A stretch of DNA of 64,000 nt from Halichondria panicea (lineage: Eukaryota; Porifera; Demospongiae; Suberitida; Halichondriidae), in the NCBI RefSeq assembly GCF_963675165.1, contig NC_087390.1:1073501-1137500 (forward strand), written 5' to 3'. This document shows positions 11,662 through 55,608 of the stretch, one piece after another. The notes below the pieces were generated by a model. That model had not been told where the DNA came from. It did not search any database and saw only the letters and a list, made by a program, of their open reading frames with translations. Position numbers and translations under genes: made by a program. The first letter of the stretch is position 1, and each line of letters opens with the position of its first letter.

Positions 11662-14600
11662 TCAGTTCTGTAGTTGGCATGGCTTTTTTGCTCCACTAGC
11701 ACTACATTCACCGTCTTCATCGTCTTTAGTGTCCTCTCTCTTCCTCTTCCTCTTTAGCGGATTGGACTCTTAAAAATAGAAAATATTTCCATGTAAACTT
11801 TGAATGCTAATATAAAAGCTATAATAATTATGACTAATGTTATGCACAGTATACTAACCTTTTACTATCTCACAGATTCTTCTTGCTGTTTTGCCATCCT
11901 TCAATTTGAGGCAAATATCAACAAGCTTGCGGTAGCTTGTGGTATGTTCGTTGAGCCAAATCTCCAACACCTTCTGACCCCTCATTTCATAATCTAAGTT
12001 AGTGTCACTCTTAATACCTTGAATTTGTGCTTCAGACAGTTTCAGTGCCTGAGCATACTTCAGCCACTTTGGAAGAACTCGACCAATTTCTTGCAAAAGT
12101 TCAGACGAGCAATGCTGATCAAGTACTTCTTTCCTGATACCCACTTCCCTCACTATATTGTTTACAGTTAAATGTTGACTTCCGGGATGTTCACCTCCGT
12201 CAGGATCTTCCTTTTCGAACCAAATCAAATGTTTATTTTCTAGCTCCCCATCGTATTCATCAGGCTTTTCGGAACAATTCCAGATACAATAATCAACATT
12301 AATCTCAGCATGATGACTTCTTACGGCAGCTTGAGCTCTGTCACCATAAATACAAGGACAGAAGAAGCAGAATTCTGGGGTATCAATCGAATAATGAAGG
12401 GCTTCTTGAGAAACTCTAATTCCTTTCGAAATGTCTTCTTTGATTTTTGGACAGAGATCTTTACAAACTATTTTGCGAGCTTTCACATACACTTCTATGT
12501 GTGTGATTGAATCGACAAGAGTTACAAAACACTGAACCTTTTGATATTTAAGCTTGATGCAGTTTCTTGCTTGAGGCACTTGATCACCCAACTTACTGTA
12601 CCTTTCCCACCCACACGTTTTCATTAAGAACACCACCAGGCAGCAGAAGACCCCAGCTCGAACAGAGCCATTGGTGAAACGGACAAGAAGTGGATCGACC
12701 GTGGGCTCATGGATACAACAGTTTTTCAGCTCAGCTTGTGGTATAGATTTAAGGAGGGCAGGCATAAAGAATTGAGACGTGTTAGCAGATTCGCCTAACA
12801 GAGAATTTGTGAGAGGAGTGATCACCAAAAGTTCTTTCATGAGCTCTATCATATCCTTGGGAACAAAGATGCCAACAAGGAAGTGCTTCTTAAAATCTTC
12901 AGACTCCAGCATATCAAGTGTTAGGATGCCACCATCTCTGAACAACTTCCACTTAGGATCCATCATATGAGTTGCAAAAGTGACTTTCCCACCTCCTCTC
13001 AAAGACATCGCATATCGAACAAGATCATTGATTATCTCTAGGGGTACCTGAGGATCAACAAAGACAACTCCAGGCAGTTTCTGCGGATAGTAATGAGCGA
13101 TGCAGATTTTGTCGAAATAATCAAGAGCAGAATCTATGTCATCTGTATCTGGCTGTAGTTGTTTAGCAACAGATACACACTCGCTTTTAGTGAGAATATG
13201 TCTCCCAACTTTAGTGCAGAACTCCTGCAAGGAGAGCTCCAGAGCAAACCATCGGAGTGGAACTTTATCTTCAAAAAACGGAGACTCTTCTACGGCATTC
13301 CGAATAGTATGTGCAATAGTTTGCGTGTCTTCATCTCGAGATATTGCATTCAAAGCAAGTATTTGTTGGGTCATTTGTTTGTCGCTGTATAATCGAAAGT
13401 ATTCTGGAATCAAGGCACTGAGTTCTTCATTTTTTTCCTCAAGGGTTGCTGACAGAACTGAAGGAGGATCATCCTTGAATGCGTCTTTGAATGTGCCCAC
13501 AAAAATACATCGTGGCTTCTTTTCATGTGTGTTCACCGACATTAGAGATTGAACGAGACTCAGAATAGTTTCCCTGTGTGACAAATGTGAGAGTGAAGGA
13601 GTGCCGACTTGTTGTCCTCCTATATAGAACTCATCAGAGGGATAATCGTTAAAAGTGTCCGTGAGCTTCATTACGTATATACCAGCTGAAGTTCCTCGTG
13701 TGAAAAGAGGTGCAATATCGTGAAACTGTGGTTGGCCTCCACTGTCGGTAACACGTATCGTCATGGTACCAAACAATTCTTCGCCACTTTTATGTCGTAC
13801 GCTTGTTGATACTGCCATTGAACTTATTTTCTCGAGATCATCAACAATATCAACAACAGCGTTTACCGCTGCTTGTGAGTGATCATAAATATCTTCAGCA
13901 GCGCTTGCACTACTCTTTTTATCAACACCCTTTAACTTATATTGAGAAATAGCTTGTGAAAGTGAACTCTTCAGATCTTGCGGTGTAGTTTCAATCCATT
14001 CTTTGCTTTTGCGCATAAAATGATGACTTGCTACGGATCGAACCTGGATGGTTCTATCCAAAGGAGGCGTGCTATTTCGTTTTTCCTTTACTTTGTTATT
14101 CAATACAAGATCTTTAACACTCGTCTTTCCACTACCAGCAGGTCCCATTAGAATAACATTAACAGTTTTCAAAGTGACAAATCCATCCTTCATTGCCTCT
14201 TCAAAGTGCCGTTTAAACCCTAAATTTGATTTTAGACATTAAATGCGTGACATACATACAAATAGGCAATAACTTTGATCAAAAGACAGACTCAATTAAT
14301 TGCACTTGTCTATATAGTTAAGAATGAGTCGTCACTATTTTGATGCAAACATCTTTCAATTTTCCCCTGACATGTACATAACTGTTTTAGCGTATATAGT
14401 GATAGAATCAGCATAACACCAAGGGCATATAAAAGAAGAGAGGGCATGCAACAAATCGATTTAACGTTCTAGGCTGTATAATTATAGTAAATTCATAATT
14501 ATACCTATAAGTATTATGTCTATCCATAGGAAGCTTAGCATGGTCGTAAGTTAGCCTCATGACTATTCATACCTGTACATGCCTCCTCTATAGCCTCAGC

Positions 14601-15844
14601 GACATCATTCCGACCAACTGTTGGTGATCTGAGACTCTGACATATTTCAGAATAGGTGAGAGGGTAAGTCTTCAAGCGAACAGCTAGCATTTGACGTAGA
14701 CAGGTTAGATTGTCTCTATGTTCATCACTGATATTATTGAGGGTGTCGGGGCTCACTTTCAGCTTAAGTCCCAGGTTGAACCACTCTCCAGCGGCTTTTA
14801 TCAGTTTCTCGTAAACAGACGAAAAATCATCGATAGTCAGAATTGAGCCTATAAAAAATGTTAAGTTCAATGGCATAATAAATAACTGACAGTAGTTTAT
14901 ATTGGAGATAACACTTACCTAGACTATATATATACATGCGTGTATAATCTATAAATCAGTTGATGAGCATATTTCATAAGGAGACACCCTCTTACCAAGC
15001 GTTGGTCCAGGATTTGCTTCAACATCTCCTGACTGTAACAGTAAGCGGAATATCAGTAACAGTATATACAGACTGAGAGTGGGGGGCCGATTAGTGCTCT
15101 GAACTCTCACTTGGAACTTGGTCGGCTTTTCTTGAGTATCAAAAACTAGAAAGTAAGAGTGTTTATAATTATTGAGGCAGTAAATATTCATTTGATTACC
15201 TGATGTGGTGCAATACTGAGTGTTCCATTGTTTCCGAGGGTTCCATCTCATCAAGCAGGCAGTGATGAGTGAGTAGCAGGTGATAAGCACAACTGACAGA
15301 ATGAGAACAGCCAGTGCACTCCCCCTCCATCCCAGCTCACAAGGAAACACTCCGGTCCAACTCAAGTCAACCACAGGGCAAGCAGGACGTGGGGGAGCTG
15401 TGTAGAGTTGCATAAATATATTCATGTGCTGTGACATCACAATTGTGGGCATGACTCCGTGAATACTAAGCATGCAATGCACTATTAAATGGCTGTTTAA
15501 AATTGACCTTTAAGCATAATTATCGTGGCCAATGCCCCGTAATGCTCTGTATAATACCAAAGTGTATGATGAGAAATGTTATGCAATTATTGGTGAGTAT
15601 GCTTCACTGACTTACAGGAAAAAGTTTGTAAGAAGAGTATGTATCTGATGGTGACCATAATGATGTAGAGTTGGTAGAGGACAGGGGTGATCAACACAGA
15701 GGCAAGGCAGGCTCTGAGCTGCCAACTAGGCTGACGGAAAATCTGGGTAACATCGTCGTCCAGATCTTGCGCGGGTGGTCTGATTTTTGGAGACCATTTT
15801 CCTTCAAAGGATCTTGCAGTTGATGATCTTAAAATCCACTGCAT
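11662..15844 (-). CDS. Gene A: membrane-2A-Death-Roc-COR-Death protein
   Basis: Six exons join in one open frame of 1106 residues: 15616-15844, 15200-15397, 14996-15145, 14573-14848, 11859-14219 and 11662-11768. All junctions are GT-AG and all introns are phase 1. Order: membrane segment about 46-73; membrane segment about 105-127; hydrophobic leader about 165-180; 2A motif DVEANPGP ending at Pro190; Death-like domain about 193-285; Roc GTPase with P-loop GPAGSGKTS, switch II DSGGQPQFHD and FVGTFKD in the guanine-binding position; COR-like region; second Death domain with LLQEIGRVLPKWLKYAQ; last exon with KRKRKRED. ROCO-Death fusions are known from DAPK1-type signalling proteins. If the 2A acts, a 189-residue membrane peptide and a 917-residue cytosolic protein would be made. 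The function is probably immune or cell-death signalling (inference). Confidence 0.85.
11859..14219 (-). CDS. Gene A exon 5: Roc-COR-Death
   Basis: This single 2361-bp exon is open throughout and is entered at phase 1 after a TTTAG acceptor. The ATG in MSKI just upstream is out of frame here, so this exon is not an independent start; the next in-frame Met is in EEAMKDGF. It carries the Roc, COR-like and C-terminal Death regions. A cysteine-rich block (CFFCPCIYG) lies before the Death domain. The donor is AAAAG/GTTAGT. Confidence 0.88.
14573..14848 (-). CDS. Gene A exon 4: Death-fold cassette
   Basis: This 276-bp phase 1-1 exon encodes about 92 residues with the pattern of a six-helix Death fold (W-NLGLKL, ICQSLRSP, A-AIEEACTG). 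The same cassette occurs at 36504-36779, 49693-49968 and 54728-55006. Its symmetric phase allows it to be moved or skipped without a frameshift. Confidence 0.75.
15003..15026 (-). other. 2A-type ribosome-skipping motif, gene A
   Basis: The bases encode DVEANPGP, which fits the D(V/I)ExNPGP 2A consensus exactly, preceded by a Leu-rich stretch (LLLIFRLLLQSG). In known 2A peptides the ribosome fails to form the Gly-Pro bond and resumes at Pro. It is in frame with exons on both sides. Confidence 0.85.
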
Positions 15845-23900: not shown

Positions 23901-26900
23901 TTACCATCTTCCTTGTTTTAGAAGGAAGTTGATCGAGAACTTCAGACTTCATCCTCCTAAATCAAAATCATACAGTTAGTTAATATACGTTACAAATTAA
24001 TAACACTACAGTGTGCACAACACTATAGACAGCATCACATGATGCATATATTACAGTAGGATGATGCTATTATTGTGTAGCTACGTATGTACATGCTTTG
24101 ATTAACACGGAAGTACGATGTTCTTGCACACCCAGTGACATCACATGATCCCATAGATACCTGATCATGATGGAGTCTTCTAGGTAGAGCTGCAGTTCTG
24201 ACATGTTGGAAGCACCACTGAAGTCCCATCCAAACTGACTCTATACAATTAATTATGGGATGTAGTATAATTATACAGTACTCTGACAGACAAAAACAGC
24301 AGGAAGAAAATTCAGTATTTACGTCAAACAACAGCAGTACACACACACACTGACAACTAACAAGTTTCTAGAGTTCAATATCAAAATGGTCCTTCATAAA
24401 CGTCGAGACTGCATCACATAAAGAGTGTGTTAAGCTCCACAAAAAGCACATCAAATTCTCACACTGTTCGAAATAAAGATACGATGGTTTTCATTGCTCT
24501 TGATTCACCTTGACTCCATTGCAGTACCTCAGTCCGAACTGGGTGTGGGACACTAGTCTGAAGTTCTTGTCCACTGCAGTGATCTGTGTGTACAGCTCGA
24601 TGGGTCGGGAGAGGGCGGGTGTCCCTGACAACAGGACAGCCCTCCGAGCACTCTGGGGGGGGGGGGGGCGGATGAACATACTGGTGTATAGTAACTAGGT
24701 ATGTGTGTACATGTATGCAGTAAATATCACACTTGTGTACAGCTAGTACAGCGTTTGTGTATGCAATACATGTACTGTGTTTTCACAGAATGCCTTATAC
24801 TGGATGCTGTTTCAGAGAAACTTGTTAATATAGCAATATTCAGTAGCGCCAATGAATTTACTTTGAGCCATCAAATCTACGTACTTGGAATCCTTTCAAG
24901 TAATCATAGCTTCTGGGCAACCCAGCATAACTACCAGACACTATACACTGTCTACTGTGTACCTTGATGACTGGAATGGCTGCTTTGGAGCGAGCAGTGC
25001 GATAGTTCTTGAGAAAGTGAGACTCATCCTACACAACAAAACACACATCATGATTATAAACTCTAGCCAGAATTAAGCAAATCTCCATTTAGTTAGGTGG
25101 CCACATAATTACTTTATATAAGGCAATTAAGTGGCCCCCAGCTATACCCAAGGTACTTAGCGATTATAGCTGAATATGCAATTTGCTGTTATGTAACAGG
25201 TGCACTAGATACCGCAATGATGGCTGAGAATCTGTGTTCTGTGATGTCCTTGCTCATCCTGACCAGCAAGTCATAGCTAATGATATTCACGAGGCAGAAC
25301 GAGCCACACCCCTTTGTCGTTAGGATGACATTAATATCAGCGTCCACCAGTGAAGGAATCCATCGTTTGAAGGCCTGCACAGGGTGGGCATAATATGTAC
25401 TGTATGCTTGCATTATATGAATGAACCTCCACCACATGAGCCCATGAGCAAAAACATTCATTTCCACATAAAGAGCAGAACACAGCCTAGCGTTATTTCA
25501 ACAACCCTCTATCTAAGCTCCTTTGGCCTTGAAATTAATAGTATTCGAGTCTCACTGACATACATGCTATTTTAACTGCCCTAATTCTACATATAATTGC
25601 CTAGTAGATAATAGTTTACGCTCAACAGAGAAAGTAGTAACAAGTTAGAGAAAGCCCCACCCGCCCACTCACCTCAGCCCAGGTGAGTCTCACTGACGAG
25701 GGGCACACTACGAGGAGGGGCCAATCAGAGCGGTAGTAGGACATGACGGCTATGGCCTGAAGTGTCTTGCCTAGTCCCATATCATCAGCTATCAACACTC
25801 GGCCATCACGCTTGATCGAGTATCTGTGGGGGTGGGGTTAGAGGATAATCAAATGAGCGTGGTATTGTAGTGGGAATAATTGTCGAAACAACCGATCAGG
25901 GAAATGGGATATATATAATCTACTGTGTGTGTTTTGTGAATATAGCAAGTTATGATAATTACACAGGCTATGGCTGCCGCTCTAAAACATTGTCAGCTAC
26001 TCAGACATTAACTTACTCCACTCCTTCTTTTTGGAACTCCATCAGAGCGGTGCTCAACTTTGTCTCGATCCTGCTCCAGTCAATGACACTGGAATGGGAC
26101 TTGGCCTGTATGGAATGGGACTGGGCCTGTAGCTGTGATAGGAACAGGTTTACGACAGGTCTGGGTATGAGGTCCAACTCCACATGCTTGCAGCTGCTCT
26201 GGATAGCTTTAACTGCAGAGGGGAGGGGTTGTTACAGTGGCATGGAATCAACAACATACCCAGTGAATTGTAGTCTTCTATTCCAAAGCTCCATAATGAC
26301 GTTTTGGTATCTATAGAAACAATTTTGATATTAATGGCGTGGCCTGGGAGTGCTTCTGGTAAGCAGTCAATCCATGATTTTTATTCAAAACAAAATAGTT
26401 TTAGGGGCCATTCCATAAAACACTTAATGCTCTGAAAATTTCACGCTTAAGGTAGAGAGGAGGATGAGGTAATTATATACTGGTATGTTTATACATAATT
26501 ATGTTTACAATAAAATTATTAGTCTAAAACATAATCTTACTGTAAGCTCTTGTAGGCATCTTCTTGAATATTTCGATGAGATCATGATCGTACTGCACTT
26601 TGACCTCCAACCTTGTCCTGGACACAATACAAACCTGTGCCTTCTTCTTGTCTCTCAGCTGGGTACACTTCACAGGGGGAGGGTGGTCAGGCGGTAGTGA
26701 TGGTGACGGCTTGCGGCTCATCGCTGCTGCCACTTTAATAGAAGCATCTGGTACTGAGGTGATTAGATGAGGTGCATTCAGAGGTGGCTTAGAGTAGAAC
26801 GGAGGAATTCTCGAATTTACTGGAACTGCTTTATTAGGTGCCGATTTCGGAGGAGAGTTATGGAACAATGTAGACAAATGAGAAGTGGATGGTTTGGAAT

Positions 26901-27329
26901 AAAATGGTGGTTGTTGGAGACCAGTTTGAGATGTCATTGATGATGGGAGTTCATTGTGTAATGTTCCTGTTCTTGGTAATGAGAGCGTCTTTGTGCTGCT
27001 GGAACTTCCTTGGTGTGATATTAGAGGATTAGACCATTTTGATTCTTGTACTTGATTTCCTGCACTGGAACTTGAGCTAGCTTCAGCAGAATTAGGATGA
27101 GATCTAACGTTGTTATAGGAACTCGAACTAGGGAATGTAGACGCCATCTTTGAGGTAGTAGCTGCAGACGTAGTGTAAGCGCGTCTCAAGGTCCCTGCAC
27201 ACCAGTGTGGGGTGGAGCCACTCTCTTGGCTGTTAGTTTGGCTTGAGCTCTTCTGTTTGCCTCCATTCTCTGCAGCTGCTCAGTAGACAATTCTTCACTG
27301 CCACTAGCTGAGGGTCTACCAGGATGCAT
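20999..27329 (-). pseudogene. SMARCAL1-like: SMARCAL1-like annealing helicase, copy 2 (frameshift in exon 1)
   Basis: Sixteen exons are recognisable: 26541-27329, 26260-26310, 26017-26212, 25673-25823, 25213-25374, 24963-25028, 24509-24652, 24161-24240, 23905-23956, 23764-23850, 23359-23529, 23005-23128, 22764-22822, 22470-22570, 22169-22262 and 20999-21121. Exons 2-16 keep correct phases and all main SNF2 motifs, including Walker A DDMGLGKT (exon 4), DESH (exon 6) and RAYRIGQ (exon 14). Exon 1 has lost 13 bp net near 27187-27205 relative to copy 1. This ends the frame at a TGA after about 46 codons and separates the RPA-binding-like N-terminus from the HARP and helicase parts. A downstream start (MASTFPSSSS, about 27145) could still give a shortened helicase. 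This is the best preserved complete copy, so the label is uncertain. Confidence 0.82.
21178..21720 (-). repeat. Dispersed repeat in last SMARCAL1 intron, unit 2
   Basis: Counterpart of 3898-4440, with the GATGCCTCGG end and GCGCATGCGC near the other end. It is inherited with the duplicated unit. Confidence 0.6.
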
Positions 27330-27789: not shown

Positions 27790-30304
27790 TCAGTACGGTT
27801 GGCATGTTTTTTTTGCTCTACTAGCACTACATTCACTGTCTTCATCGTCTTTAGTGTCCTCTCTCTTCCTCTTTAGATTGTACTCTTAAAAATAGAAAAT
27901 ATTTCCATGTAAAATTTGAATGCTAATATATTATGACTAATGTTATGCACAGTATACTAACCTTTTACTATCTCACAGATTCTTCTTGCTGTTTCGCCAT
28001 CCTTAAATGTGAGGCAAATATCAACAAGCGTGCGGTAGCTTGTGTTACATTCGTTGTGCCAAATCTCCAACACCTTCTGACCTTTCATTTCATTATCTAA
28101 GTTAGCGTCAGTCTTAATACCTTGAATTTGTGCTTTAGATAGCAGAGCCTGAGCATACTTCAGCCAGTTTGGAAGAACTCGACCAATTTCTTGCAAAAGT
28201 TCAGACGAGCAATGCTGATCAAGCACTTCTTTCTTGATACCCACTTCCCTCACTACATTGTCTACAGTTAAATGTTGACTCTCGAAATGTTCACCTCCCC
28301 CAGGATTTTTCTTTTCGAACCAAATTAAATGTTTATTTTCTAACTTTCCATCGTATTCATCAGGCTTTTCGGAACAATTCCAGGTATAATCAACATCAAC
28401 CTCAGCATGATGACATTTTATGGCACCATAAATACAAGGACAGAAAAAGCAGATTTCTGGGGCATTAATCGAATAATGAAGGGCTTCTTGAGAAGCTCTA
28501 ATTCCTTCCAAAATGTCTTCTTTGATTTTTGGACAGAGATTTTCACAAATTATTTTTTTAGCATTCACATACACTTCTATTTGTGCAATTGAATCGACAA
28601 GAGTAACGAAACACTTTTTCTTTCGAAGCTTGATGCAGTTTCTTGCTTGAGGCACTTGTTCTCCCGATTTACTGTACCTTTCCCACCCACGCGTTTTCAT
28701 TAAGAACACCACCAAGCAGCAGAAGACCCCAGCTCGAATGCAGCCATTGGTGAAGCGAACAAGAAGTGGATCGACCGAGGGCTCATTGATGCAGCAGTTT
28801 TTCAACTCAGCTCGTGGTATAGACTTAAGGAGGGCAGGCATAAAGAATTGAGTAGATTCGCATAACAGAGAATTTGTGAGAGGAGATATCACTAAAAGTT
28901 CTTTCATGAGCTCTATCATATGTTTAGGAGCAAATATATTACGACCATGATGATCAGGATACCAAAAATGCTTTTTAAAATCCTCAGACTCCAGTATATC
29001 AAGTGTTAGGACGCCACCATCTCTGAGCAACTTCAACTTAATAGGATCAGAATTAAATAATTGAGTTGCAGTTGGTAAAGTATCTTCACCACCTTCTCTT
29101 AAAGACATCGCATATCGAACGAGATCATTGATTATCTCTAGGGGTACCTGAGGATCTACAAAGACAATTCCAGGAAGTTTCTGCGGATAGTAATGGACTA
29201 TGCAGATTTTGTCAAAATATTCAAGAGCAGATTCTATGTCATCGGTATGTGACTGTAGTTTTTTAGCCACATCTACACACTCACTTCTGGTGAGAATACG
29301 TCTCCCAACTTGAGTGCAGTACTCCTGCAAGGAAAGCTCCAGAGCAAACCACCGGAGTGGAACATCGTCTTCAAAAAACGGAGACCCTTCCACCACATTT
29401 CGAATAGCTTGTGCAATAGTTTGAGTGTCTTCATCTCGAGATATTGCATTTAATTCAAATATTAGTTGGGTCATTCGTCTGTCCCTGTATACTCTAAAGC
29501 ATTCAGGAATCAAGGCATGGAGTTCTTGATTTTTTTTTTTTAGGGTAGACAGAATTGAAGGAGGATCATTCTTGAATGCGTCTTTGAATGTGCCCACAAA
29601 GATGCATCGTGGCTTCTTTTCATGTGTGTTCACCGACAGGAGAGATTGAATGAGACTTAGAATAGTTTCCCTGTGTGACAAGTGTGAGAGGGAAGGAGTG
29701 CCGACTTGTTGTCCTTCTATATAGCACTCATCAGAAGGATAATCGTTAAACTTATCTGTGAGCTTCATTACGTATATACCAGCTGAAGTTCCTTGTGTGA
29801 AAAGAGGTGCAATATCGTGAAACTGTGGTTGGCCTCCACTATCGGTAACACGTATTGTCATGGTACCAAACAATTCTTCGCCACTTTTATGTATGCTTGT
29901 TGAATCTGCCATTGAACTTATTTCCTCAAGATCGTCAACAACAGCATTTACCGCTGCTTGTGAGTGATCATGAATGTCTTCAGCAGCGCTTGTGCTACTC
30001 TTTTTATGATCATCCTTTAACTTATATTGAGAAATAGCTTCAGAAAGTAAACGCTTCATATCTTGTGGTGTTATTTCCTTCCATTCTTTGCCTTTGCACA
30101 CAACATGATGACTTGATACGGATCTGACCTGGATGGTTCTATCCAAAGGACCTGTGCTATTTCGTTCTTCCTTTACTTCGTTATTCAATACAAGATCTTT
30201 AACACTCGTCTTTCCACTACCAGCAGGTCCCATTAGAATAACATTAACAGTTTTCAAAGTGACAAATCCATCCTTCATTGCTTCTTCAAAGTGCTGTTTA
30301 AATC
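27790..30304 (-). CDS. Gene B, 3' part: Roc-COR-Death exon and basic tail exon
   Basis: Exon 27962-30304 is entered at phase 1 (TTTAG acceptor), is fully open, and ends at AAAAG/GTTAGT. The final exon 27790-27884 adds a Lys/Arg-rich then acidic tail (KRKREDTKDDED) and TGA. Domains are as in gene A: P-loop GPAGSGKTS, DSGGQPQFHD, FVGTFKDAF, COR-like region, CFFCPCIYG block and a C-terminal Death domain (LLQEIGRVLPNWLKYAQ). Upstream exons are probably those at 36504-37962, which end in the matching phase across a 6.2-kb intron packed with transposons. Together they would encode about 1100 residues. Alternatively this part starts from its own promoter at MKDGFVTLK. Confidence 0.82.
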
Positions 30305-36303: not shown

Positions 36304-37962
36304 TCACTCACTGGTTGGTTCAGGATTCGTTGTAGACATATTTGTTTTAGATGGCCCAGGTAAAGTATCGTCAACTAAACAAAAGTATATACAAAAGTAC
36401 ATAGTACCTGTGGTCAACTACGTATAAACCCATTCACATACCTAAGTCTATACATAGAAATGCTTCTATGTGGTCATAAGTTAGCCTCTCACTATATTCA
36501 TACCTGTACATGCCTCCTCTATAGCCTCAGCGACATCATTCCGATCAACTGATGGTGCTCTGAGACTCTGGCATATTTCAAAATAAGTGAGCGGGCCAGT
36601 CTTCAAGCGAACAGCTAACATTTCCCGTAGACAATCCTTGTTCCTGTGATAGTCATCTTTTATATCATCGAGGGTGCCATGACCTAATCCCAGATCAAGT
36701 CCCAGGTTCACCCAGTTTCCAGCGGCTATTATCAGGTTCTTGTAAACAGAATTCAAATCACTGAGCATCAGAATTGAACCTACCAGTGAATTGTAAGTTT
36801 TGTCAATCATAACAATACATGCATGCATGTATACTCTATTAAATAGTTGATGAGCATAATTCATAAAGAGACACTCTCGTACCAAGCGTTGGTCCAGGGT
36901 TTGCTTCAACATCTCCTGACTGTAACAGTAAGCGGAATATCAGTAACAGTATACACAGACTGAGAGTGGGGGGCAACATCGGTCGATGATTAGTGCTTTG
37001 AACTCTCACTTTGAACTTGGTCGGTTTTTCTTGAGTATCAAAAACGAGTAACGTTTAAATTTATTGTGGCATTAAATATTCATTTGATTACCTGATGTTA
37101 TGCAATGCTGAATGTTCCATCGTTTCCGAGGGTTCCATCTCACCAAGCAGGCAGTAATGAGTGAGTAGCAGGTGATAAGCACAGCTGACAGAATGAGAAC
37201 GGCCAGTGCACTCCCCCTCCATCCCAGCTCACAAGGAAACACTCCAGTCCAACTCAAGTCAACCACAGGGCAAGCAGGACGTGGGGGAGCTGTGTAGAGT
37301 TGCATAAAATTTAATGTATTCATGTGCTGTGACATCACAATTGTGATAATGATTCCGTGAAGAACTAGAGCACTGAAGTGCAAACCCTCAGCGTTAATTT
37401 GAGGTTTAGTGAGTCTACAGTCTCAAGTCAAAGCCGCGTGTACATCTATAGGTCAACGTGGCAGGTTCGAGTTTTTTAGCTTCTTAGCTTTTATTTGGCA
37501 ATGAATTAAGCTTTAACATCAAAATCTGCCAACTTTAAAACTATACTACCTTGTTGTGTTGAGGCTATCCATGGTAGCTACAAACATCCAGGTGAGTATA
37601 CTCAGGATACACAGACAGACAGACAGACTAACCGACTACTATAATTATATACTACTGTTAACCCATGGTGTCGTTATATATATATGCAATTATTGGTGAG
37701 TATGATTCACTGACTCACAAGAAAAGGTTTGTAAGAAGAGTATGTATCTGATGGTGATCATAATGAGGTAGAGTTGGTAGAGGACAGGGGTGATCAACAC
37801 AGAGGCAAGGCTGGCTCTGAGCTGCCAACTAGGCATATGGAAAACCAGGGGAATATCATCTTCCAGGTCTTCCGGGTCATCGTACTCGTAGGGTGGTCTG
37901 ATTTTTGGAGACCACTTTCCTTCGAAGGATCTTGCTGTTGATGACCTCAAAATCCACTGCAT
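36304..37962 (-). CDS. Gene B, 5' part: membrane-2A-Death protein (short form)
   Basis: Exons are 37719-37962, 37092-37289, 36883-37029 or -37044, 36504-36779 and 36304-36374, joined in phase 1. The product is 311-316 residues: two membrane segments, a hydrophobic leader, the 2A motif DVEANPGP, a Death cassette, and a tail ending TTNPEPTSE. At the third exon, the base pair before the expected exon edge (37045-37046) reads CG instead of AG on the coding strand, so the usual acceptor is lost. The CAAG 15 bases further in restores the frame exactly. An in-frame Met lies just before the hydrophobic leader. Skipping the last exon would join the Death cassette, in phase, to the Roc exon at 30304 and give the long form. 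Confidence 0.78.
36890..36913 (-). other. 2A-type ribosome-skipping motif, gene B
   Basis: The bases encode DVEANPGP after a Leu-rich leader, identical to gene A. The donor that follows (CTTG/GTACGA) is weaker than in genes A and D. Confidence 0.85.
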
Positions 37963-39251: not shown

Positions 39252-39548
<297 letters not shown>

Positions 39549-39879
39549 GTACGCAGGGTTCAGTACAGTTGAGGAGAGCAACAAGTTCTACAAGGCCAAC
39601 ATAGCGGCCGGTCAGCAAGGGTTGAGTGTGGCCTTTGACCTGCCCACTCACAGGGGGTACGATTCTGATAACCCCCTCGCTGTGGGGGACGTGGGAATGG
39701 CAGGGGTCGTTGTGGACTCAGTGGAGGATATGAAGGTACCTAGCCTGTGCGTGTGTATGTGCGTGTGTATAATGTATGGTTTGACTATAATGGTGTTTTA
39801 GAGTACTTATAGTGTTTGATGGGTATATAATTATATTCTACATTGTATGCTAAACATCGGTTAGCACTTTAAGAAAAAG

Positions 39880-49439: not shown

Positions 49440-52400
49440 TCACTGCATGGTTGGTCCAGAAGACAATTGTTGCCTCTTAGATGGTCCAGGCAAAGTATCG
49501 TCATCTGAAAGTAAATATGGTACATGTATTATTGGACGGCAATTGAATGCTATAATTATAGTATCTAGTTTTACGTTCCTGACTATAGACTGTGGTCAAT
49601 AATCCATTCACATGTCTCTAAGCTGCATGATGTCTACTCATAGAAATGTTTATATAATGTGGTCGAGGTTAGCCTCATAACTATATTCATACCTGTACAT
49701 GCCTCCTCTATAGCCTTAGCGAGGGCATCTCGTCTAACTGCTGGTGCTCTGAGACTCTGACATATTTTAGAATAGGTGAGATTGGCAGTCTTCAAGCAAA
49801 CAGTTAGCATTTCACATAGACGGTCCTTGTTCCCGTGATAGTCATCTTTTATATCTTCGAGGGTTCCAGGATGTAATTTCAGAGCAAGTCCCAGTTCCTT
49901 CCAGCTTCCAGCAGCTTCGATCAGTTTATCATTAACAGACCCCAAATCATCGAGAGTCAGAATGGAGCCTAAAAAAACATTTTATAGGTACAATGGGATA
50001 CATGCATGCACATGGTTTAATTATGCAATATATATGAAATAGCTGATAAACAACTTGTATACGCGTATATAGGAGACATCCGCTTACCAAGTGTTCGTCT
50101 TCCTGACTCGTCTTCTTTGTACTCTTCCTTTCTCTTAACACCTATGATGGTTGATGATGGTTTGGACTCTTGAAAATATTTGTATGTAAACGTATAGAGT
50201 TGAAATGCTAACTATAATTTATATGGCTATAATAGTTAATTATAGCGGGTAATTTTCATTGGTGAAAAATGAACTACCCAATTATTTTGTATTCTAAATA
50301 TTCGTACAGCTCTTGGGGTAGAATAATTTCGCAGTTTTAATTTTCGTATGATGCTCTTCAATACGAAATGTATATACCATCATACGAAAATAACCCGCTA
50401 TAATTATATATACGGTATAATATATGGCATGATTTGTACAGCTATATAGACGATACAGAATCCACGTAGTAAGACGCTCCATTCCCTCATGTGCTCCTGA
50501 CGATATCAAGAGTTTATTAGAAAGAGTACACACATCTATTTAAAACCGTAGTATGGGGGAAATTATGTACAGGATATATATATTTTAGATCCCATTTGAA
50601 TGTGTTTAACAATATAACGGTAGTATACTAACCTTTTACTATATCTCTTGTTGTGTCGCCATCCTTAAATCTTCCGAACCAAATCAATTGTTTATTTTCT
50701 AACTCCCCATCGTATTCATCAGGCTTTTCGAAACAATTCCAGGTATAACAGTCAACATCAATCTCAGCATGATGACTTTTTGTGGCACCATGAATACAAG
50801 GACAAAAGAAGCAGACTTCTGGGGCATCAATCGAATAATGAAGGGCTTCTTGAGAAACTCTAATTCCTTCCGAAATGTCTTCTTTGATTTTTGGACAGAG
50901 ATTTTCACAAATTCTTTTAGGAGCTTTCACATACACTTCTATGTGTACGATTGAATCAACAAGAGTTATAAAGCAATTTCGATATTTAAGCTTGATACAG
51001 TTTCTTGCTTGAGGCACTTGTTCTCTCGACTTACTGTACCTTTCCCACCCACACGTTTTCATTAAGAACACCACCAGGCAGCAGAATACCCCAGCTCGAA
51101 TACAGCCATTGGTGAAGCGAACAAGAAGTGGATCGACCGAGCGCTCATGGTTACAGCAGTTTTTCAATTCAGCTTGTGGTATAGATTTAAGGAGGGCAGG
51201 CATAAAGAATTGAGACGTGTTAGCAGATTCGCCTAACAGAGAATTTGTGAGAGGAGTGATCACCAAAAGTTCTTTCATGAGCTCTATCATATCCTTGGGA
51301 ACAAAGATGCCAACAAGGAAGTGCTTCTTAAAATCTTTAGACTCCAGCATATCAAGTGTTAGGATGCCACCATCTCTGAACAACTTCCACTTAGGATCCA
51401 TCATATGAGTTGCAGTTGCAAAAGTGACTTTCCCATCTCCTCTCAAAGACATCGCATATCGAACAAGATCATTGATTATCTCTAGGGGTACCTGAGGATC
51501 AACAAAGACAACTCCAGGCAGTTTCTGCGGATAGTAATGAGCTATGCAGATTTTGTTGAAATAATCAAGAGCAGAATCTATGTCATCTGTATCTGGCTGT
51601 AGTTCTTTAGCCACAGATATACACTCGCTTTTAGTGAGAATATGTCTCCCAACTTTAGTGCAGAACTCCTGCAAGGAGAGCTCCAGAGCAAACCATCGGA
51701 GTGGAACTTTATCTTCAAAAAACGGAGACTCTTCTACGGCATTCCGAATAGCATGTGCAATAGTTTGCGTGTCTTCATCTCGAGATATTGCATTCAAAGC
51801 AAGTATTTGTTGGGTCATTTGTGTGTTGCTGTATACTCGAAAGCATTCAGGAATCAAGGCACTGAGTTCTTGATTTTTTTCCTCAAGGGTTGCTGACAGA
51901 ACTGAAGGAGGGTCATCCTTGAATGCGTCTTTGAATGTGCCCACAAAAATACATCGTGGCTTTTTTTCATGTGTGTTCACCGACATTAGAGATTGAACGA
52001 GACTTAGAATAGTTTCCCTGTGTGATAAGTGTGAGAGGGAAGGAGTGCCGACTTGTTGTCCTCCTATATAGAACTCATCAGAGGGATAATCGTTAAACTT
52101 GTCTGTGAGCTTCATTACGTATACACCAGCTGAAGTTCCTCGTGTGAAAAGAGGTGCAATATCGTGAAACTGTGGTTGGCCTCCACTATCGGTAACACGT
52201 ATCGTCATGGTACCAAACAATTCTCCGCCACTTTTATGTACGCTTCTTGAATCTGCTATTAAACTTATTTCCTCAAGATCATCAAGTACAGCCTTTACCG
52301 CTGCTTGTGAGTGATCATGAATATCTTCAGCAGCGCTTGTGCTACTCTTTTTATGATCATCCTTTAACTTATATTGAGAAATAGCTTCAGAAAGTAAACG

Positions 52401-52651
52401 CTTCATATCTTGTGGTGTCATTTCGTTCCATTCTTTGCCTTTGCACACAACATGGTGACTTGCTACGGATCGGACCTGGATGGTTCTATCCAAAGGACCT
52501 GTGCTATTTCGTTTATCCTTTACTTTGTTCTTCAATACAAGATCTTTAACACTCGTCTTTCCACTACCAGCAGGTCCCATTAGAATAACATTAACAGTTT
52601 TCAAAGTGACAAATCCATCCTTCATTGCCTCTTCAAAGTGCTGTTTAAATC
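49440..52651 (-). CDS. Gene C: Roc-COR exon with relocated Death domain exon
   Basis: Exons are 50633-52651 (Roc-COR), 50088-50168, 49693-49968 (Death cassette) and 49440-49504, all phase 1 and open to TGA. The Roc exon has the P-loop GPAGSGKTS, DSGGQPQFHD and FVGTFKDAF, but lacks the roughly 100-residue Death domain found at this point in genes A and B. It passes in frame from KQLIWF to GRFKDGDTTRDIVKG. A Death cassette is instead supplied by a separate downstream exon, followed by a DDDTLPGPSKRQQ tail. The 81-bp linker exon starts like the basic tail exon of gene A (ESKP, VKRKEE) and ends RRTLG like the 2A exon. Upstream exons may be those of gene D (54728-57056). The in-frame ATG at 52673 (MSKINLGFK) offers another start. 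Confidence 0.78.
50232..50415. mobile_element. MITE with TATAGCGGGTAATTTT ends
   Basis: TATAGCGGGTAATTTTCAT and the complement of GAAAATAACCCGCTATA form the ends. An inner hairpin (TTCGTATGATG/CATCATACGAA) is present. It lies in the intron between the Roc and linker exons of gene C. Confidence 0.7.
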
Positions 52652-54455: not shown

Positions 54456-55130
54456 ATTTAAATACAATTACTTGACAACAGAATACTAAGTATACTAAGT
54501 AAGTTGCAGGTATACTAAGTCCCATAGTATATACGTACCTGCTCTGAGGCACTTTTCCCATGTACTTCCCGTGTAGATCTTATCAACTAAACAATATTAT
54601 CGTATGAAGTACATAATTATAGTACCCATCGATTTAATGATAGTAAACTCATAATTATACCTAAGTATTTATGTTTATCCATAGGAAGCTTAGCATGGTC
54701 GTAAGTTAGCCTCATCACTATTCATACCTGTACATGCCTCCTCTATAGCCTTAGCGATGGCATCTCCTCTAACTGTTGGTGATCTGAGACTATGACATAT
54801 TTCAGAATAAGTGAGAGGAGGGCCAGTCTTCAAGCGAGCAGCTATCATTTCACGTAGACAGGGTTGATTGTCTTGATGTTTATCACTGATATTATGGAGG
54901 GTTTCAAAGTCTAATCCCAGGGCAAGTCCCAGGTTGAACCACTTTACAGCGGCTTGTATCAGGTTCTCGTAAACAGATGGCAAATCATTGAGAGTCAGAA
55001 TAGAGCCTACAAAATTACAAGTGCAATGTGCAATGCTCAACACATGACTTATACATGCTCACTATATGAAATAGTTGACGAGCAACTTGTTATTATACGC
55101 ATACATAAAGAGACACTGCTTACCAAGCGT

Positions 55131-55154
55131 TGGTCCAGGGTTTACTTCAACATC
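55131..55154 (-). other. 2A-type ribosome-skipping motif, gene D
   Basis: The bases encode DVEVNPGP. The only change from genes A and B is at the variable x position, so the consensus is kept in spite of the nonsense codon in exon 1. Confidence 0.85.
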
Positions 55155-55608
55155 TCCTGACTGTAACAGTAAGCGGAATATCAGTAACAGTATACACAGA
55201 CTGAGAGTGGGGGGAAACATCGGTCGATTAGTGCTCTGAACTCTCACTTGGAACTTGGTCGGCTTTTCTTGAGTATCAAAAACTAGTAAGTAAGATTATT
55301 GTGGCAGTAAAATAATACTCATTTGATTACCTGATGTGGTGCAATACTGAGTGTTCCATTGTTTTCGAGGGTTCCATCTCACCAAGCAGGCAGTGATGAG
55401 TGAGTAGCAGGTGATAAGCACAGCTGACAGAATGAGAACGGCCAGTGCACTCTCCCTCCATCCCAGCTCACAAGGAAACACTCCGGTCCAACTCAAGTCA
55501 ACCACAGGGCAAGCAGGACATGGGGGAGCTGTGTAGAGTTACATAAATATATTCATGTGCTGTGACATCATAATTGTGGTTGTGACTCCGTGAATACAAG
55601 CAGCCAAT

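Follow-up and report, generated by a model that had tools for sequence, protein, structure and literature searches.

In the sponge Halichondria panicea, an exon of 150 nucleotides probably encodes a host StopGo (2A) element within a shuffled N-terminal cassette, with skipping predicted to give a membrane leader and a cytosolic Death-ROCO protein. The exon lies in the window, the whole stretch of 64,000 nucleotides analysed here, where a single coding frame links a two-TM leader, via the 2A, to a Death-Roc-COR-Death body. Genome-wide counts, the upstream context and cross-family conservation strongly suggest that this 2A is a genuine StopGo element.

The gene in the window and its tandem copies

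In the splice model, copy 1 is a single frame of 1106 codons without a stop, spread over six minus-strand exons in the order TM exon, TM exon, 2A exon, Death, Roc-COR-Death and tail. All introns have GT donors and AG acceptors, and every one is in phase 1. The 2A exon (14996-15145), bounded by AG and GT, is in frame with the two hydrophobic exons upstream and with the Death and Roc-COR-Death exons. The predicted protein starts with MQWILRS, as do P0001 and P0006, and its 2A core begins at residue 183. The features of copy 1 are:

15616..15844, minus strand: exon 1, with start codon, basic N-terminus and TM segment 1; GT donor, open frame
15200..15397, minus strand: exon 2, with a Cys-containing loop, TM segment 2 and RWNPRK; AG/GT, phase 1; 47 genome matches
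14996..15145, minus strand: exon 3, with the hydrophobic run LSLYILLLIFRLLLQSG and the 2A core; 150 nt, phase 1 at both ends
15003..15026, minus strand: 2A core DVEANPGP; predicted Gly/Pro break after residue 189
14573..14848, minus strand: exon 4, Death domain immediately after the 2A
11859..14219, minus strand: exon 5, with Roc, COR and the second Death domain
11662..11768, minus strand: exon 6, with the basic tail PLKRKRKRE (NLS-like by eye) and the stop codon

Copies 1-3 are tandem duplicates, their units lying about 16-22 kb apart, and the Roc-COR exons of the other two copies are 83 and 89% identical to that of copy 1. The features of copies 2 and 3 are:

37719..37962, minus strand: copy 2, exon 1, from the splice model (partial exon) and comparison with P0006
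37092..37289, minus strand: copy 2, exon 2, from the splice model
36883..37044, minus strand: copy 2, 2A exon, by homology; the acceptor is CG, and P0006 fits a start 15 nt in (37029)
36890..36913, minus strand: copy 2, 2A core DVEANPGP, from the six-frame motif search
36504..36779, minus strand: copy 2, Death exon, from the splice model
27962..30304, minus strand: copy 2, Roc-COR-Death exon, from the splice model
27790..27884, minus strand: copy 2, last exon, from the splice model
55331..55528, minus strand: copy 3, exon 2, from the splice model
55124..55282, minus strand: copy 3, 2A exon, from the splice model
55131..55154, minus strand: copy 3, 2A core DVEVNPGP, from the six-frame motif search
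54728..55006, minus strand: copy 3, Death exon, from the splice model
50633..52651, minus strand: copy 3, Roc-COR exon, without the C-terminal Death part present in copies 1 and 2

Splice modelling within the window found neither the first nor the last exon of copy 3. The earlier note had placed the motif at 15003-15026, 36890-36913 and 55131-55154, and DVE(A/V)NPGP is present exactly there, on the minus strand, in all three copies. Its claim that the 2A exon is in frame with membrane exons and a Death-Roc-COR-Death body is borne out by the copy 1 splice chain, the NCBI gene models and the predicted folds. It had also pointed to the retention of the motif in three paralogues. This is true but weak evidence alone, since the copies are tandem duplicates; we therefore give conservation among them little weight and let the genome-wide data carry it. 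The 2A exon measures 150, 162 and 159 nt in copies 1-3, a multiple of 3 each time, so exon skipping would keep the frame and also yield fusions.

P0006, the H. panicea uncharacterized protein LOC135347310 isoform X2, keeps the 2A. From its residue 23 it matches the copy 2 model (1083 residues, exon 1 partial) at 1078 of 1083 positions, and the sole mismatch is VFDTQ, five residues at the start of the 2A exon. Use of an AAG acceptor 15 nt inside the exon, the usual AG reading CG in this copy, would explain why P0006 lacks these residues; the alternative acceptor preserves both the frame and the 2A. RNA reads are part of the basis of NCBI gene models of this kind. Of the 12 NCBI proteins returned, the best is 83% identical to copy 1 over the region searched and none matches it exactly; the similarity search linked no NCBI record to copy 1 or copy 3.

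Predicted folds support the COR and both Death domains: exon 4 has the six-helix Death fold, and a COR fold match follows the Roc-like part, as in ROCO proteins. Against Pfam PF00531, exon 4 scores 15.3 bits in copy 1 and 14 bits in copy 2, below the cut-off of 22.6, and in copy 3 it gives no PF00531 match. Roc scores 24.6 bits in Pfam (cut-off 27). The P-loop GPAGSGKT and DSGGQP are conserved in the Roc part, which in the predicted model lies mostly below pLDDT 50. A PDB sequence search with the Roc-COR body returned only Rab/Arf-type G3 matches (best E 0.0087), other GTPase matches and one unrelated chain; with P0018 it returned mostly ankyrin and Ig matches. A thin Roc-COR family profile (Neff 1.5) aligns to P0018 over columns 6-792 (E 6.3e-14) and to P0023 over 99 columns only (E 5.7e-8). 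Putative ROCO genes form a large expansion in the sponge genome. At least 57 Roc-COR-like regions exceed 300 bits in this genome (G000; contigs C6, C7, C8, C10, C13 and C14), 57 of 492 candidates having been scored.

Other sequences lie between and beside the copies. A methylmalonyl-CoA mutase piece (82.5 bits) and a HARP/SMARCAL1-type piece (24.7 bits, cut-off 25) are located between ROCO copies, at 39253-39798 and 26527-27279; their repeats suggest that both were duplicated along with the ROCO copies. Another Death-type exon is found downstream of copy 3, at about 49681-49970, and P0001 and P0004 end in a Death segment like it.

2A cores and leader cassettes across the genome

NPGP occurs nowhere else in the six frames of the window than in the three cores, and the number of D(V/I)ExNPGP matches expected there from residue frequencies is 3e-5. 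In the 131 Mb H. panicea genome, where the contig of the window measures 6,511,711 bases, D(V/I/M)ExNPGP has 116 matches, compared with 0 for the reversed pattern. Positions were listed for 100 of the 116, and 64 distinct sites were read (62 D-type and two N-type). Position 2 of the core is M in none of the 62 distinct D-type sites, and in 60 of them (A/S/C)G stands directly before D; the exceptions are RG in L027 (C2) and GG in L028, a retrotransposon-type frame. In the window, the StopGo core (D/G/C/N)(V/I)ExNPGP lies in an open frame and LLLQSG precedes it in all three copies, an L-rich hexapeptide ending in (A/S/C)G. This context resembles the L-rich StopGo motifs 2 and 6, which end in (A/S/C)G according to Li et al. 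(2026, PMC12846837). The same source describes one motif-6 example as active in vitro, p12 = N variants as more than 95% active, and S as favoured at the x position of L-rich motifs; the window cores, unlike these, have A or V at x.

The leader was also counted independently of the motif. The exon-2 peptide is found in at least 47 places in the genome. A D-type core lies within 500 nt of 45 of the 47 matches, and the other two (L086 and L087) have NVEANPGP cores, reading LLLLSGNVEANPGP and LLLQSGNVEANPGP, so that all 47 scored copies of TM exon 2 adjoin a 2A core. Ten 2A sites in the same clusters are without a nearby exon-2 match. A second leader type (MGISVELWRARIGLF...) has 18 matches that are 81-100% identical to the query and cover at least 108 of its 109 residues; each has a core among the 2A sites listed, and 17 are without an internal stop. 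An additional copy, split into two matches of which the second has a stop, keeps the core. Two more matches (107-109 residues; 71% and 54%) and a fragmented copy at C5:2648825-2649134 have stops inside and are absent from the 2A sites listed. N-terminal pieces of this leader occur in eight places on C11, C4, C12 and C3, seven of them within 400 nt of a listed 2A site (the exception is C4:4050687).

When the C14 and C2 families are compared, 38 positions are identical in exon 2 and 20 in the 2A exon. Their 2A ends, LLQSGDVEANPGP and LLQCGDVESNPGP, differ silently in five codons and by a residue change in two. A within-family codon comparison (26 distinct exons) was of little use, as the copies hardly differ even at silent positions and had been chosen by the motif; the count anchored on exon 2 was used in its place. 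A search limited to shared 5-residue words found no named relative outside H. panicea, a result that is not evidence of absence. P0025, one match of the similarity search, is without the 2A core.

Among 26 NCBI proteins from the homology searches, 14 hold the core in frame. It starts at residues 106-201 in P0001-P0011, at 116 in P0023 and at 415 in P0013 and P0014. By eye against the profile seeds, a Death segment follows the 2A in each of P0001-P0011. In a profile search seeded by 11 segments of these proteins, which tests association and not membership, a Death domain lies within 1500 nt downstream in 48 of the 64 distinct sites, and within 1500 nt upstream in two of 62 (L025 and L026, in a tandem run). 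Sixteen sites are without a downstream Death domain. Four are retrotransposon-type frames; the other 12 are two on C1, five on C2, one on C7, L051 on C10, the short unassigned frame L015 and both N-type sites, whose downstream stretch covered less than 90 nt. Among these 12, CARD-like segments were seen by eye after the 2A in L049 (C2), L052 (C1) and L085 (C7). Pfam gives no match in these three or in L015, L050 and L051, and in L083 it gives Death below the cut-off.

The bodies behind the C14-type 2A are diverse. They are Roc-COR in P0001-P0003 and P0006, NACHT in P0004 and P0007-P0009 (73.4 bits in P0004, 70.1 bits in P0009), a ZU5-like segment (by eye) in P0005 and dynamin N (30.5 bits) in P0011, whose leader is without the two-TM exons. 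P0010 and P0023 differ in their leaders; their cores, DVEINPGP and DVELNPGP, precede Death-type segments. Thus the predicted cassette is not a ROCO feature: a set of Death-fold genes, those for NACHT proteins among them, share it as their N-terminus. The architecture of a Death-ROCO protein with leader and 2A, as the earlier note described it, is supported; its restriction to ROCO genes was too narrow. In P0013, Death-like regions lie on both sides of the 2A, and the 2A at residue 415 would split P0013 and P0014 internally if the gene model is right.

Predicted products and rival readings

In the proposed mechanism, most ribosomes would skip the Gly-Pro bond and release a 189-residue membrane leader, and the cytosolic Death-ROCO body would then start with Pro; a minority would read through to give a leader-body fusion. 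Judged by eye from the charges, the TM segments would make a hairpin whose two ends are both cytosolic; the fusion would then keep the Death-ROCO body on the cytosolic side of a membrane instead of secreting it. A single mRNA would supply a membrane partner and a soluble signalling protein of the Death-fold type, of which a variable part would stay tethered, and the same cassette would serve NACHT, ROCO, ZU5-like and dynamin-type bodies.

Several observations bear on these products. By hydropathy, P0001-P0009 have two segments ahead of the 2A and a third that extends into it; P0010 and P0011 have one hydrophobic leader segment only. The ROCO bodies of P0001-P0003 and P0006 contain, in the COR part, one 19-residue window at a marginal hydropathy of 1.83, which does not favour a soluble body. 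Upstream regions that enter the ER by translocation can inhibit a 2A (PMC2978324), so the fusion could dominate. An N-terminal Pro has potential destabilising effects, according to Li et al. (PMC12846837), and the free body may thus be short-lived.

A possible reading, which we hold only tentatively, is simple co-expression, in which near-complete skipping delivers a matched membrane partner and soluble sensor and the fusion is a functionless by-product. It agrees with the separation of about 92.7% to almost 100% reported for four representative StopGo motifs, motif 6 included (PMC12846837), and with conservation of the leader as a protein between C14 and C2, seen in the 38 identical exon-2 positions; against it, no interaction between the leader and the Death proteins is known. 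It is unlikely that these proteins are membrane-bound receptors whose 2A skips poorly or is mostly bypassed. The core is retained in 47 of 47 cassettes, and 60 of 62 sites keep the (A/S/C)G context, although the inhibition of 2A by some translocated upstream regions (PMC2978324) and the frame-keeping loss of the 2A exon would both permit bypass. The TM-bearing NLR models of the sponge Dysidea avara, called putative membrane-bound NLRs in a report whose available text does not use the term NPGP (PMC12909245), would also fit membrane-bound receptors.

We consider it quite improbable that the 2A exon is what remains of a 2A-bearing non-LTR retrotransposon reading frame, an account that concerns its origin only and not its present activity. 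Such elements are known to carry 2A (PMC4981915); in this genome the 2A frame of L012, L016 and L028 holds PHD and/or endonuclease domains, and the residues after the 2A in L014 are those in L012. In the window genes, by contrast, a Death domain follows the 2A, and the leader exons are common to several Death-fold gene families. A chance octapeptide without recoding function has almost no probability, given the 116 genome sites compared with 0, the conserved upstream context and the core in 47 of 47 cassettes.

Returning to the exon as an active StopGo element, a doubtful extension would make this virus-type recoding signal a general front end of the Death-fold receptors of this sponge. Skipping depends on the ribosome's state and on its factors, and the cassette could therefore act as a reporter of translation stress or infection. 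Free sensors and membrane leaders would be the products of normal translation; disturbed translation would shift the ratio to tethered fusions or to the leader alone, switching the site and mode of Death-fold assembly.

Relation to known systems

The closest known system is the sea-urchin NLR signal-2A (SpNLR2A; Roulston et al., 2016, PMC4981915); the present leader is multi-pass and its bodies extend beyond NLRs. According to that source, 85 of 241 sea-urchin NLR proteins have 2A-like sequences and, in a later count, 14 of 87 NCBI entries have a 26-residue N-terminal 2A. SpNLR2A6 skips in vitro at about 80%, a qualitative estimate, and serves as a signal sequence once recoding is abolished. 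In both systems an L-rich 2A is fused to a hydrophobic leader and stands before Death-domain immune proteins that belong to a large gene family; the window genes likewise place a 2A leader before a Death-domain, immune-type protein. The dual product was shown for one sea-urchin sequence and is predicted in the sponge. The 26-residue sea-urchin 2A lies at or near the N-terminus and its uncleaved form enters the exocytic pathway, whereas the core of sponge copy 1 starts at residue 183, behind two TM exons. The sponge bodies may be ROCO, ZU5-like, dynamin-type or NACHT.

With viral StopGo/2A sequences of L-rich motif 2/6, as described in PMC12846837, the sponge elements have in common a (D/N)(V/I)ExNPGP core and an L-rich stretch ending in (A/S/C)G; they differ in belonging to host genes with introns and in having a predicted membrane protein as the upstream product. 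Like LRRK2 and the C. tepidum Roco, the window genes have a Roc-like part followed by COR, but by Pfam they lack LRR and kinase domains, and they have Death domains on both sides and a 2A leader. The sponge NCOA6-TRADD-N expansion (PMC8195603) is similarly a large set with a Death-fold N-terminal unit and a variable C-terminus; neither a 2A nor a membrane leader is mentioned in its available text. No title or opening of an abstract in the literature searched reports a 2A on ROCO proteins or sponge 2A leaders, and the survey of eukaryotic 2A by Rao et al. (2025, Cell Rep 44:115822) may list such genes.

Non-LTR retrotransposon 2A sequences belong to the same octapeptide class and occur in the same genome. 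L012, L014, L016 and L028 are non-LTR retrotransposon-type frames with their own 2A, L014 by its likeness to L012. The four frames read are of the PHD/endonuclease kind and have no Death domain within 1500 nt; among 10 stretches scanned, PHD or endonuclease follows the 2A in L012, L016 and L028 only. That the present window genes are themselves a retrotransposon frame was rejected: Death and Roc-COR follow the 2A, with no PHD or endonuclease.

StopGo has been called rare in cellular genes (PMC12846837); this one animal genome holds 116 D-type sites, at least four of those read lying in retrotransposon frames. As an instance of recoding by host genes, the cassette lends itself to direct testing. 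If the elements are active, sponge receptors that seem membrane-bound by their TM segments may in fact be soluble proteins accompanied by a separate membrane partner, and exon shuffling would be seen to carry a recoding element from one kind of immune-type body to another.
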